In this document: positions 25,953 through 50,126 of the stretch, piece after piece
Position numbering within the stretch: position 1 is the first letter of the stretch
Layout of the letters: every line of letters begins with the position of its first letter
From: Caldicellulosiruptor kronotskyensis 2002
GTDB lineage: Bacteria > Bacillota > Thermoanaerobacteria > Caldicellulosiruptorales > Caldicellulosiruptoraceae
Assembly: GCF_000166775.1 (NCBI RefSeq)
Contig: NC_014720.1
Location: 2,102,501-2,166,500 of the forward strand
Direction: 5' to 3'
DNA: 64,000 nucleotides
Notes under the pieces: model-generated
Told to the model about the DNA's origin: nothing
Database searches by the model: none
What the model saw: only the letters and a program-made list of their open reading frames with translations
Program-made: the position numbers and the translations under genes

Positions 25953-26083
25953 TTATCCTCATCTCTCAGAAAGCTAAGATATTTTGCTTTCTGACGGAGT
26001 TGGCACCATTGCAAAGCTAAAAGCTTTGCCGGTTGCCGGGTTTCATCGGGCCTTTTTCCCTCCACCTCTCTTGATAAGGATAA
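25953..26083 (-). ncRNA. SAM-I (S-box) riboswitch
   Basis: Classical S-box aptamer on the minus strand: TTATCAAGAGAGGTGGAGGG, then GGCCCGATGAAACCCGGCAA, then AATGGTGCCAACTCC, closing with GAGAGATGAGGATAA. P1 is TTATCCTTATC (26073-26083) paired with GATGAGGATAA (25953-25963), eleven pairs with one G-U. When S-adenosylmethionine stabilises P1, the terminator forms and metK is off. Confidence 0.96.
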
Positions 26084-47021: not shown

Positions 47022-48305
47022 TCAAAAGCAAACGTAAAAAGAAGTTCCAAAAAGGTCTATATATTCAAAAATGGCTGTACAAGCAAAATCAATGTTAAAA
47101 TTATTTATGAACACAACTGTCACCCATGCAATTACATTAAATAGTTTTGAATTCACATACTCACCCATGATTTCTTTGTCGTTTGTAAGCTTGAGCATGT
47201 AAATGAGAATTATTGGAAGTAAAATTCCATTTATCTCCTGAGCAACTATCATTAGTTTTATCAAAGGTATATTTGGAAGCAAAATTATTCCTGCCCCTAT
47301 GACAATAAAAAGAAGTATTATTCCATAAAATACAGGTGCTTCTTTGAACTTCTTGTCAAGTCCATTTTCAAAACCAAATGCCTCAGTTATAGCATATGCC
47401 GTTGAAAGTGGCAGAATATGTGCACCTAAAAGTGATGCACCAAAAAGCCCTATCGCAAAAAGGCTTGATGCATACTTCCCTGCAAACGGCTCCAAGGCTT
47501 TTGCCGCATCTTCTGCTGTTTCAATGTTAATGCCATGTTTGTAAAGTGTAGCTGCTGTTGCAACAACTATGAAAAACGCAATAAAGTCTGTCCAGAAGGC
47601 TCCCAAAAAGACATCCCATCGCTGGTACTTAAGGTTCTTAACATCAACCCCTTTATCCACAACAGAGGACTGCAAGTAAAACTGCATCCATGGCGTTATC
47701 GTGGTACCTATCATAGCAATAAATATCAATACAAAACTGGGCTCAAAACTAAATGAAGGTACAAATGTGTTTTTGAACACCTCTTTCCAGTCTGGTTTAG
47801 CTAAAAATCCTGAAATTATATAGCTGATATAAATTACCATAAGACCTAAAAAGAACTTTTCAGTTTTTTTATATGACCCTTTGTTAATAATATACCAAAC
47901 AAAAATAGCAGTAAGAGGAACAGAGATATATTTTGATATACCAAATATTTCAAGGCTTGCTGCAATTCCTGCAAACTCTCCAACTGTTGTTGTAAAGTTG
48001 GCAATCAAAAGGGTCACCATTGCAAAAAATGTCATTTTCACACCAAAGTTTTCCCTGATAAGGTCAGAAAGTCCCTTGCCAGTTACAACACCCATTCGTG
48101 CTGCCATTTCTTGAATTACTGCCAAGCTTATAGTTATCAGAAAAAGTCCCCACAGCATCTTGTAACCAAACATGGAACCTACCATTGCATATGTTGCAAT
48201 ACCCGATGCATCATTGTCAGCTGTTGCAGTCACAAGTCCTGGCCCAATTACACTTAAAATTAAAAGAATATTTCTTAGTCTGGTGCTTCTCGTTGTCTGT
48301 GCCAT
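47022..48305 (-). CDS. Nramp-related divalent metal transporter, probably magnesium type
   Basis: 427 residues with 11 hydrophobic helices of the SLC11/Nramp fold. The helix 1 DPGN motif of canonical Mn/Fe transporters is replaced by DASG (Asp32-Gly35). The helix 6 MPH motif is replaced by TPW (Thr204-Trp206, in IGTTITPWMQFY). Loss of the metal-coordinating Met and His argues against transition metal selectivity. The gene lies behind an M-box riboswitch and a PRC/MgtE-N/CBS gene, so Mg2+ is the best-supported substrate. Spacing to the upstream gene is 33 nt. Confidence 0.8.
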   Translation of the reverse strand: MAQTTRSTRLRNILLILSVIGPGLVTATADNDASGIATYAMVGSMFGYKMLWGLFLITISLAVIQEMAARMGVVTGKGLSDLIRENFGVKMTFFAMVTLLIANFTTTVGEFAGIAASLEIFGISKYISVPLTAIFVWYIINKGSYKKTEKFFLGLMVIYISYIISGFLAKPDWKEVFKNTFVPSFSFEPSFVLIFIAMIGTTITPWMQFYLQSSVVDKGVDVKNLKYQRWDVFLGAFWTDFIAFFIVVATAATLYKHGINIETAEDAAKALEPFAGKYASSLFAIGLFGASLLGAHILPLSTAYAITEAFGFENGLDKKFKEAPVFYGIILLFIVIGAGIILLPNIPLIKLMIVAQEINGILLPIILIYMLKLTNDKEIMGEYVNSKLFNVIAWVTVVFINNFNIDFACTAIFEYIDLFGTSFYVCF

Positions 48306-48338: not shown

Positions 48339-49592
48339 CTACAGCAGCAGTTTTCTTTTCATCTTTAACAGTTCGTATACAATGTCGTTTATAATGACAA
48401 CTCCTATAAGTTTTTTGCTCTCATTCACAACAGGCACAGCAAGAAGACTATATTTTGAAATAATCTCAACAAGAGAATTAACATTATCAGTATCCTTTAC
48501 ACAAACCACATCCCTGTTCATTATCTCATAAAGCGGTGTTTGAGGCTCAGAGATTACCAAGTCGCGCAAAGATACAACTCCGCAAAGCCTTTCATCATTG
48601 TCAACAACATACAGGTAATAAATCTCGTCTGGTTCAGGTTTCAAGCGTCTTAGCTCCTCTATTGTCTGCTCAACTGTGAAATGTGTCTTGAACGCGATAA
48701 AATCAGTTGTCATTATTGCACCAACACTGTTTTCTGGATATTCCATAAGTTCTTTGACTTCTTCTGATGCTTCCTTTTCCATTTCGTTTAAAAGTTCTTC
48801 TGCTCTTTCCTCTTTTATCTCGTCTAAAATATCTGCAACCTCATCAGCCGGCATTTTCTCAAGTACATCCGCTGCCTTTTCAACAGGAAGACTCTCTAAA
48901 ACATTTCTCTGTGCTTCAACCTCAAGCTCTTCCAAAACATCTGCAGCCTTTTCCTCATCCAGAGTCGAAAATATATAAGCTTGCGTCTTTTTGTCAAGTT
49001 CTTCAATGATGTCTGCCAAATCCGAAGGATGCAAGGTGGCAAGCTTTGAATATGTGGTTGAAAGCTTTAAATCAAGCCTTGGCGATGCAAGCGGCTGTAC
49101 ATCGTCCCACAAAATAAGCCGCGAAGGAATGTTTTTACCAAGAGGTTTTAAGACTTTTTTCAGGGGCTTTGCAAGACCAAGCCTTCTCAAAAGTCCTTCA
49201 AGACCAATATCTACAGCTATTACATAAACACCTGTAGAAAGTACTGCAAGTCTTATATCATTTACCCTCACAACTTTTCTGCCATTCATATCAACAATCT
49301 GCTTGTCAAGTATATGACGAACAAGCATAATGGTGTCTTCTTTTTTCACATCGATTGGCTTTAAGTTCCTTGTTTCAATCACGTATTGCCCTTTTTCCTT
49401 GTAGATTATGAAAAACGAAAAATCAACAATTTGAGTTTGACCGCCACTTTTTACCTTTGCAGCAATTACTTTGGGTCTTATATAACTTGCATCAACAACC
49501 AAGTCTAAAAGCCTTCCCACAACCTTCTTTTCTTCTGAAAAGACCTTGTTGCCGATTACTCTGCTAAGATAAAAGCTTGTGACGTTTGGCAT
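48339..49592 (-). CDS. soluble PRC-barrel/MgtE-N/CBS protein
   Basis: 417 residues without transmembrane helices. The N-terminal part (about 1-170) holds two PRC-barrel-like repeats (RVIGNKVFSEEKKVVGRLLDL, LDKQIVDMNGRKVVRVNDIRL). An MgtE-N superhelical domain follows (about 190-270; LHPSDLADIIEELDKK, EEKAADVLEEL, ADEVADILDEI), then two CBS domains (about 280-400). This is the cytosolic sensor part of MgtE without its channel. It probably gates or regulates the Nramp-like transporter encoded next. The ATG is at the end of a GGAGGGG ribosome site that is itself part of an RNA switch. Confidence 0.85.
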   Translation of the reverse strand: MPNVTSFYLSRVIGNKVFSEEKKVVGRLLDLVVDASYIRPKVIAAKVKSGGQTQIVDFSFFIIYKEKGQYVIETRNLKPIDVKKEDTIMLVRHILDKQIVDMNGRKVVRVNDIRLAVLSTGVYVIAVDIGLEGLLRRLGLAKPLKKVLKPLGKNIPSRLILWDDVQPLASPRLDLKLSTTYSKLATLHPSDLADIIEELDKKTQAYIFSTLDEEKAADVLEELEVEAQRNVLESLPVEKAADVLEKMPADEVADILDEIKEERAEELLNEMEKEASEEVKELMEYPENSVGAIMTTDFIAFKTHFTVEQTIEELRRLKPEPDEIYYLYVVDNDERLCGVVSLRDLVISEPQTPLYEIMNRDVVCVKDTDNVNSLVEIISKYSLLAVPVVNESKKLIGVVIINDIVYELLKMKRKLLL

Positions 49593-49593
49593 T

Positions 49594-49727
49594 TTAGCAC
49601 CCCTCCTTTTTTGAATTTTTTTGTGTCATTTGGTGGAGGGGTGCTAAAAGCCTTTAAAATCTATTTGCAAGAAGGTGCATTTATTCCTTCTTCTTTTCAA
49701 AACAGAGAAAAATTAGCACCCCTCCAC
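49594..49727 (-). promoter_or_regulatory. putative translational switch: duplicated ribosome site and anti-site
   Basis: Three elements on the minus transcript. (1) GTGGAGGGGTGCTAA at 49713-49727. (2) TTTTAGCACCCCTCCACC at 49632-49649. (3) The real ribosome site GGAGGGGTGCTAA at 49594-49606, just before the ATG. Element 2 can pair perfectly with 1 (15 bp) or with 3 (15 bp including the A of the start codon). Pairing 2:3 hides the start; pairing 1:2 frees it. The loop of 1:2 holds another small hairpin (AAGAAGG/CCTTCTT). Confidence 0.65.
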
Positions 49728-49863
49728 ATTCCAAAGTACAATTGCTTTTTGTTGTCCAATCCTGCTTACTCACAGGACCAGAGTCCATCTTTTCTCTCAA
49801 CTCCTTCTTTAAGAAGAATTTTTGCAATAGCAAAATTTTATACATTGATATTAGAAACAAAAA

Positions 49864-49901
49864 GTGCTTTCACCCAAAGCTTAAAAACGAGGTGAAAGCA
49901 C
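49864..49901 (-). terminator. M-box expression-platform terminator
   Basis: GTGCTTTCACC pairs with GGTGAAAGCAC (11 bp), then TTTTTG on the minus strand. It is placed directly after the M-box, as expected for Mg2+-triggered termination. Confidence 0.85.
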
Positions 49902-49917
49902 ACTTTACGCCCTTTTA

Positions 49918-50074
49918 AAGCTACCTCGTACAAGCTTTGGCACTACACGGCATAAAAAGCTGCATTAGGTTATGCCTTGGTTTCGGCAAAACCTGTTCAC
50001 CAGCTCAGATTGTCTCCAATCTTTCGCGGCAGCAGCCTATATCCCTGTAGGAGCCTCGCCTACCGAGATATCTT
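49918..50074 (-). ncRNA. M-box (ykoK) Mg2+ riboswitch
   Basis: The minus strand carries the conserved M-box core: GGTAGGCGAGGCTCCTAC, GCTGCTGCC, GGAGACAATCTGAG, ACAGGTTTTGCCGAAACC, AAGGCATAACCTAA, and a closing GTAGTGCCAAAGCT...ACGAGG. P1 pairs 50064-50074 with 49918-49928. High Mg2+ should stabilise it and favour the downstream terminator. It controls the MgtE-N/CBS and Nramp-like genes. Confidence 0.95.
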
Positions 50075-50098: not shown

Positions 50099-50126
50099 AT
50101 TTTAGCACAATTTTTTCATTTTTCAA
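50099..50126 (-). promoter_or_regulatory. promoter of the magnesium operon
   Basis: TTGAAA (50121-50126), 16-nt spacer, TAAAAT (50099-50104), 25 nt ahead of the M-box. Confidence 0.6.

Follow-up and report, generated by a model that had tools for sequence, protein, structure and literature searches.

The leader of a predicted magnesium transporter operon in a 64,000-nt window of the Caldicellulosiruptor kronotskyensis 2002 genome probably carries a leader-peptide translational attenuator in series with an M-box riboswitch. Sequence conservation and folding support this reading through an upstream open reading frame (uORF), three RNA elements, their mutually exclusive pairing and their geometry. 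An earlier note on this DNA had proposed a translational switch, placed after the M-box, as a further layer of control; the proposal is well supported by conservation and, by the sequence evidence, the layer is real and conserved. The control itself we infer: translation would set which hairpin forms, the choice would be kinetic and made during transcription in this genus, and Mg2+ would be the signal.

Features are given in window coordinates and lie on the minus strand unless stated. The first gene (48339–49592) encodes a 417-aa PRC-barrel/MgtE_N/CBS protein (Pfam PF05239, PF03448, PF00571), for which the Pfam search returned no membrane-domain match. The second gene (47022–48305) encodes a Nramp-family transporter with a DNDASG motif (Pfam PF01566, E 6e-106), predicted to be a NrmT-type Mg transporter. 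NrmT operons with an MgtE-N gene and an M-box are on record in passages of PMC4072509. With a Nramp-family gene beside an MgtE-N gene behind an M-box, the window operon is, as judged from its sequence, of the type described there. A promoter-like site (TTGAAA-16-TAAAAT, 50099–50126), identified by a 10/12 consensus match alone, lies just 5′ of the M-box (Mg2+) aptamer at 49918–50074. The aptamer was found with Rfam RF00380 at 127.5 bits (E 3.1e-28), clearing the curated cut-off of 44 bits. The switch had been said to follow an M-box with its own terminator, and a terminator-like hairpin was indeed found 3′ of the aptamer, as predicted for its presumed expression platform (49857–49902; 12-bp stem then UUUUUG, −20.8 kcal/mol, z −4.3). 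A simple terminator scan that allowed only loops of 3–8 did not pick this hairpin. Elsewhere in the window, a SAM riboswitch was located at 25956–26080 (RF00162, 83.2 bits).

As the earlier note had described, GGAGGGGTGCTAA occurs twice in exact form on the transcribed strand, at 49594–49606 in the ribosome site of the first gene and at 49713–49725 in the decoy, with its complement between them (49635–49647, plus strand). These are the 3 exact matches in the window on both strands, against a chance expectation of 0.74 with up to two mismatches, and the whole 2.84-Mb genome holds no further exact copies. The decoy, or anti-antisense element (GTGGAGGGGTGCTAA, 49713–49727), occupies uORF codons 21–25. 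The antisense element (TTTTAGCACCCCTCCACC, 49632–49649) can pair with either the decoy or the ribosome site, and the latter, with the start codon of the first gene (GGAGGGGTGCTAAAATGCC, 49588–49606), was assigned by sequence and pairing. Decoy and antisense form 15 bp (GUGGAGGGGUGCUAA/UUAGCACCCCUCCAC). Antisense and ribosome site form 15 contiguous bp plus 3 extra bp reaching the start codon region. The two hairpins are mutually exclusive, and one of them hides the ribosome site of the gene. Leaders were scored for this triad by the best 10-nt antisense able to pair with both the ribosome site and an upstream segment, with 200 dinucleotide shuffles per leader. None of the 200 shuffles reached the score of the window leader (z 7.3); the genome copy count and the shuffles exclude a chance repeat. 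The decoy was also considered as a working ribosome site of another ORF and rejected, as no start codon lies at a usable distance 3′ of it in the window. A CIRCE-like (HrcA) site, suggested by a TTAGCAC half, was rejected because its spacing is unsuitable.

Decoy and antisense are parts of a larger unit, which extends beyond the coordinates first noted and opens with a uORF at 49788. The uORF (49681–49788) has an ATG at 49788, 35 codons and a stop at 49681–49683, and was assigned by its Shine-Dalgarno sequence and conserved N-terminus. The predicted leader peptide, MDSGPVSKQDWTTKSNCTLECGGVLIFLCFEKKKE, begins MDSGPVSKQDW. The Shine-Dalgarno AAGGAG (49801–49806) lies 12 nt 5′ of the ATG, which is rather long. 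Codons 2–5 (Asp-Ser-Gly-Pro, 49774–49785) are the proposed site of ribosome pausing or drop-off. Asp or Glu at position 2 and Pro at position 5 are kept across lineages, and D2 and P5 are the only acidic or proline residues at the N-terminus of the window peptide. The decoy lies inside the uORF, and the antisense begins about 35–39 nt 3′ of the uORF stop. GGAG...ATGGAYNNNGGNCC (SD-MDxGP) occurs once per genome in 13/13 genomes of the source family, each time at the NrmT-type operon. The driver of the switch had been overlooked in the earlier note: because the decoy belongs to a conserved uORF, the translating ribosome is the likely controller, not RNA folding alone. A second small ORF, MHLLANRF at −88, was discarded because it is absent from relatives, and a 94-aa plus-strand ORF overlapping the region gave no match in the Pfam search.

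The first gene was present in 12/12 species of the genus examined, in one sister genus and in many further Bacillota. MDSGPV was kept by 12/12 congeners, and distant uORFs begin MDSGPYNKR, MDSSPYYQ, MDPDPSIER, MDTDPDGR, MDGDPYDK, MDPVPRAG, MDAGPSGN and MEGDPLRW, among others. An M-D/E-x-x-P uORF with a Shine-Dalgarno was found at 20 of the 25 first-gene loci with a detected M-box. In 26 NrmT-type leaders residue 2 was D in 25 and E in 1, and residue 5 was P in 24; these leaders were chosen by their M-[D/E]-x-x-P start, and what is informative is therefore the synonymous codon use, together with the controls. The first codons vary synonymously (GAC/GAT, serine TCT/AGT, GGT/GGC/GGA, CCT/CCC/CCG). 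Conservation of the peptide ends at about residue 8, after which both frame and sequence shift within the genus. There the decoy is read in three frames (..CGGVLI.., ..WRGAN.., ..VEGC stop), with its nucleotides nearly constant. Synonymous change at the start and a decoy that shifts frame indicate that it is the peptide that is preserved at the start and the RNA that is preserved in the decoy.

The triad reached p≤0.005 in 22/26 NrmT-type leaders and p≤0.05 in 24/26 (mean z 5.4), rows that are not all independent, six being congeners. Among the SAM and FMN control leaders the corresponding values were 1/37, 3/37 and a mean z of 0.03. The outcome that the earlier note had named as refuting, relatives that keep the ribosome site and lose the decoy and antisense, was looked for and did not arise: 24/26 leaders keep the triad. 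Nor is the triad kept letter by letter: complementarity persists through 18 distinct antisense sequences in 24 leaders, examples across lineages being GCACCCCUCC, CAUCCCUCCA, ACAUCCCCCC, GCAUCCUUCC, AACUCCUCCC, AUCCUUCCGG, GUGCAUUCUU and CCGGCAACCG. Over these 24 leaders 226/240 decoy:antisense and 218/240 antisense:SD pairs were possible; because the segments were picked for complementarity, these counts are descriptive, and the test lies in the comparison with shuffles. A direct search supplied the pair counts, since MAFFT misaligned the three most distant rows. In one genome (G009, L013) the decoy has A in place of G, and the antisense has the matching U in place of C. RNAalifold found little covariation within the genus alone, where the sequences are too alike. 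The uORF and triad also occur where no M-box was detected (L020, L021, L062, L094), which indicates a separate module. In four other loci (L119, L120, L034, L039) the gene lies close behind the M-box, and an M-D/E-x-x-P uORF is absent; most loci carry both M-box and uORF. Two Clostridium loci without a detected M-box (L054, L085) have uORF-like starts lacking Pro5 (MDVNLYYK, MDDTWYYK) together with GGGTGTAC-type repeats, and are perhaps drifting versions of the module.

The decoy starts at uORF nt 37–71 in 24/24 triad leaders. The antisense lies 3′ of the uORF stop in 21/24, the exceptions being L031, L032 and L033, and in most leaders the stop is 32–123 nt 5′ of the gene. A ribosome stopped at codon 5 should extend as far as roughly nt 30. 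It would therefore leave the decoy free, and a ribosome further on would cover it. The proposed pause site accordingly lies 5′ of the switching element, as the decoy position and constrained folding both indicate. Nascent leaders were folded with a ribosome block at codon 5, and decoy:antisense pairing had a probability of 0.67–1.0 in 16/16. With the block on the decoy no such pairing formed, and the full leader then folded mostly into antisense:SD in these 16 leaders. In five relatives (L022, L033, L102, L124, L128) free RNA holds the decoy off the antisense and the codon-5 block frees it; by folding, these are four-element attenuators. In the window genus the ON hairpin forms in nascent RNA whether or not a ribosome is paused. 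At equilibrium, the paused ribosome included, the full window leader adopts the OFF hairpin (P 1.0 at 37°C, 0.93–0.95 at 65°C). The attenuator model consequently needs kinetic trapping, that is, dependence on which hairpin forms first, and for the window genus this is its weakest structural point. Equilibrium accessibility of the SD, computed with or without the ribosome, was uninformative.

The proposed mechanism would run as follows. At low Mg2+, transcripts that escape the M-box terminator would carry the uORF, and its first codons, M-D-x-G/D-P, would make ribosomes pause or fall off. With the ribosome held early, the decoy would remain uncovered and pair with the antisense as the latter emerges from RNA polymerase, and this hairpin would leave the ribosome site of the transporter operon free (ON). 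At sufficient Mg2+ the ribosome would run through the uORF and cover the decoy, and the antisense would then pair with the ribosome site (OFF). The attenuator reading is supported by a triad kept through complementarity, a uORF start kept as peptide, fixed geometry, constrained folding, a module that occurs without the M-box, uORFs rich in D, E or P at other Mg transporters, and the precedents of MgtL and mgtQ. Against it stand the single acidic residue of MDSGP, fewer than in MgtL (EPDP), the 12-nt Shine-Dalgarno spacing, the equilibrium preference for OFF in the window, and weak triad enrichment at mgtE and corA.

Other explanations were weighed against the same evidence. The attenuator might be read correctly and its signal wrongly, with the ribosome on MDxGP sensing EF-P/ABC-F capacity, charged prolyl-tRNA or translation-inhibiting drugs in place of Mg2+. 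Start-proximal proline and acidic codons are also substrates of EF-P and ABC-F factors (EttA), and sequence cannot separate these signals. This uORF type accompanies Mg transporters and Mg riboswitches, however, with 0/53 among SAM and FMN leaders, and the single SD-MDxGP of each source-family genome sits at a Mg transporter operon of NrmT type; a signal other than Mg2+ is therefore considered unlikely. Somewhat less credible still is a switch made of RNA only, thrown by the M-box, by direct effects of Mg2+ on folding or by temperature, with the uORF incidental. Three elements are indeed enough to make two alternative hairpins, nascent RNA of this genus forms the decoy:antisense hairpin without a ribosome, and the M. 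tuberculosis M-box acts through an SD1/antiSD/SD2 arrangement, according to parts of PMC12810186. Such a switch would not account for a uORF start conserved as peptide, a decoy always found in one part of the uORF or beside its stop, triads that occur without an M-box, or the five relatives whose free RNA lacks the ON pairing until a paused ribosome frees the decoy.

The uORF could instead raise translation of the transporter by coupling or reinitiation, or make a functional small protein, with the hairpins keeping the site closed until then. Two uORFs (L029, L033) do run into the gene start. The distance from stop to gene in most leaders, the lack of peptide conservation past about residue 8 and the variable frame within the genus all speak against this explanation, which we regard as very improbable. 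The leader-peptide attenuator responding to Mg2+ is accordingly preferred.

Leaders behind M-boxes in general were collected by an RF00380 profile search of 399 genomes of the phylum. A uORF was counted if it had an SD, D/E at residue 2 and at least 3 D/E/P in residues 2–8, a rule set before leaders L181–L220 and the controls were examined. It was satisfied by 33/86 M-box leaders against 0/30 SAM and 0/28 FMN leaders. A slightly broader acidic/proline motif was found in 38/85 M-box leaders (shuffles: mean 3.8, maximum 10) and in 0/53 SAM and FMN leaders; the control leaders have lower median lengths (125 and 108 nt, against 198 nt), for which the shuffles allow. The genes 3′ of such M-box leaders include MgtE and CorA, for example behind MDPDPGSS (MgtE), MDDPDADL (CorA) and MEESPHRR (CorA). 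At mgtE and corA leaders the ribosome-site triad was weakly enriched (7/37 at p≤0.05), so the output there must often differ, and outputs other than this triad are likely.

Several individual leaders were recorded in this survey. The second M-box of the genome (L161, G000:C1:699100-701500) lies outside the window, at 699201–699368, and is followed by a uORF beginning MDGGGSSKSYKG (MDGGGSSK) and a P-type cation ATPase. In L126, at about −218 to the gene start, a uORF MDGSPSSKRGD... precedes a terminator-like hairpin with a T-run, which may be a transcriptional version of the uORF switch. In three CorA leaders (L174, L178, L195) the uORF start (GGACGACCC) is able to base-pair with a segment further along the uORF, which can also pair with an antisense 5′ of the gene, the arrangement of a four-element attenuator. 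M-boxes also precede ABC-transporter permease genes (L131, L142, L164, L173; Pfam BPD_transp_1 in L131, L164, L173), an unusual target for a Mg riboswitch, and some of these leaders carry MDADP uORFs.

We lean slightly towards a wider reading: a second, independent sensor of Mg2+ would be common in the M-box leaders of Bacillota. This would be an acidic/proline leader peptide whose ribosome reports low Mg2+, a convergent counterpart of enterobacterial MgtL. On one mRNA, Mg2+ would be checked in turn by the aptamer and the ribosome, the outputs differing between NrmT, MgtE and CorA operons; the peptide module would in some lineages work without the riboswitch. If so, a single transcript is controlled in series by two Mg2+ sensors of unrelated kind, one a folded RNA and the other a ribosome, and nascent-peptide Mg2+ sensing, described for enterobacteria in the papers found, is widespread in Bacillota. 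The long stretch that often separates M-boxes from their genes would be explained. Dozens of peptides would form a natural set showing which N-termini destabilise ribosomes at low Mg2+, and the leader would be a clean system in which to ask why cells should check one ion twice. A literature search, conducted mostly without subscription papers and preprints, returned no report of acidic/proline leader peptides behind Bacillota M-boxes, and novelty is provisional to that extent.

Among known systems, ermC-type attenuators of antibiotic resistance genes use the position of a ribosome on a leader ORF to pick the hairpin that hides or frees the ribosome site. The same kind of choice is proposed here, although stalling in the ermC type depends on a drug and its peptide and genes are unrelated. 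MgtL-like starts were present among the leaders found (MDPDP, METDP), and relatives of the window also have MDTDP, MDGDP and MEGDP. MgtL itself, the MEPDP... peptide of enterobacterial mgtA, as in E. coli, is likewise a short uORF before a Mg transporter with acidic and proline residues at positions 2–5, and passages of PMC11282234 describe ribosomes dropping off at EPDP at low Mg2+. It belongs to other bacteria, however, the likeness is of motif only, and here an M-box stands in front. The MgtL output in that account is Rho-dependent termination, whereas the arrangement here points to a hairpin over the ribosome site. In the mgtC-mgtB system of Salmonella, parts of PMC8092293 describe mgtQ, in which Asp2/Glu5 together with stem-loops 1:2 and 3:4 versus 2:3 free the mgtB ribosome site. 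A translation-aborting uORF combined with alternative stem-loops that free a transporter ribosome site is almost identical logic, proposed here from sequence. Unlike mgtQ, which has 8 codons and is intergenic, the uORFs found here usually have 17–40 codons, lie in an operon leader, occur across Bacillota and stand in tandem with a riboswitch. By analogy the window leader would work like mgtQ and MgtL; membership of the MgtL class, defined by intrinsic ribosome destabilization (IRD), is not established for a peptide with one acidic residue. The M-box NrmT/MgtE-N operons of PMC4072509 share an authentic M-box and terminator before the same operon type. The M-box accounts for transcription control there, and the uORF and triad lie beyond it; the passages of that paper searched by term hold no mention of either 3′ of the M-box. 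The M. tuberculosis pe20 leader, as presented in parts of PMC12810186, likewise shows uORFs 3′ of an M-box, together with an SD/antiSD/anti-antiSD arrangement. In that leader the M-box is itself proposed to work the switch, which controls a uORF, with Rho; in the window leader the uORF is the candidate controller, behind an M-box with a terminator of its own.
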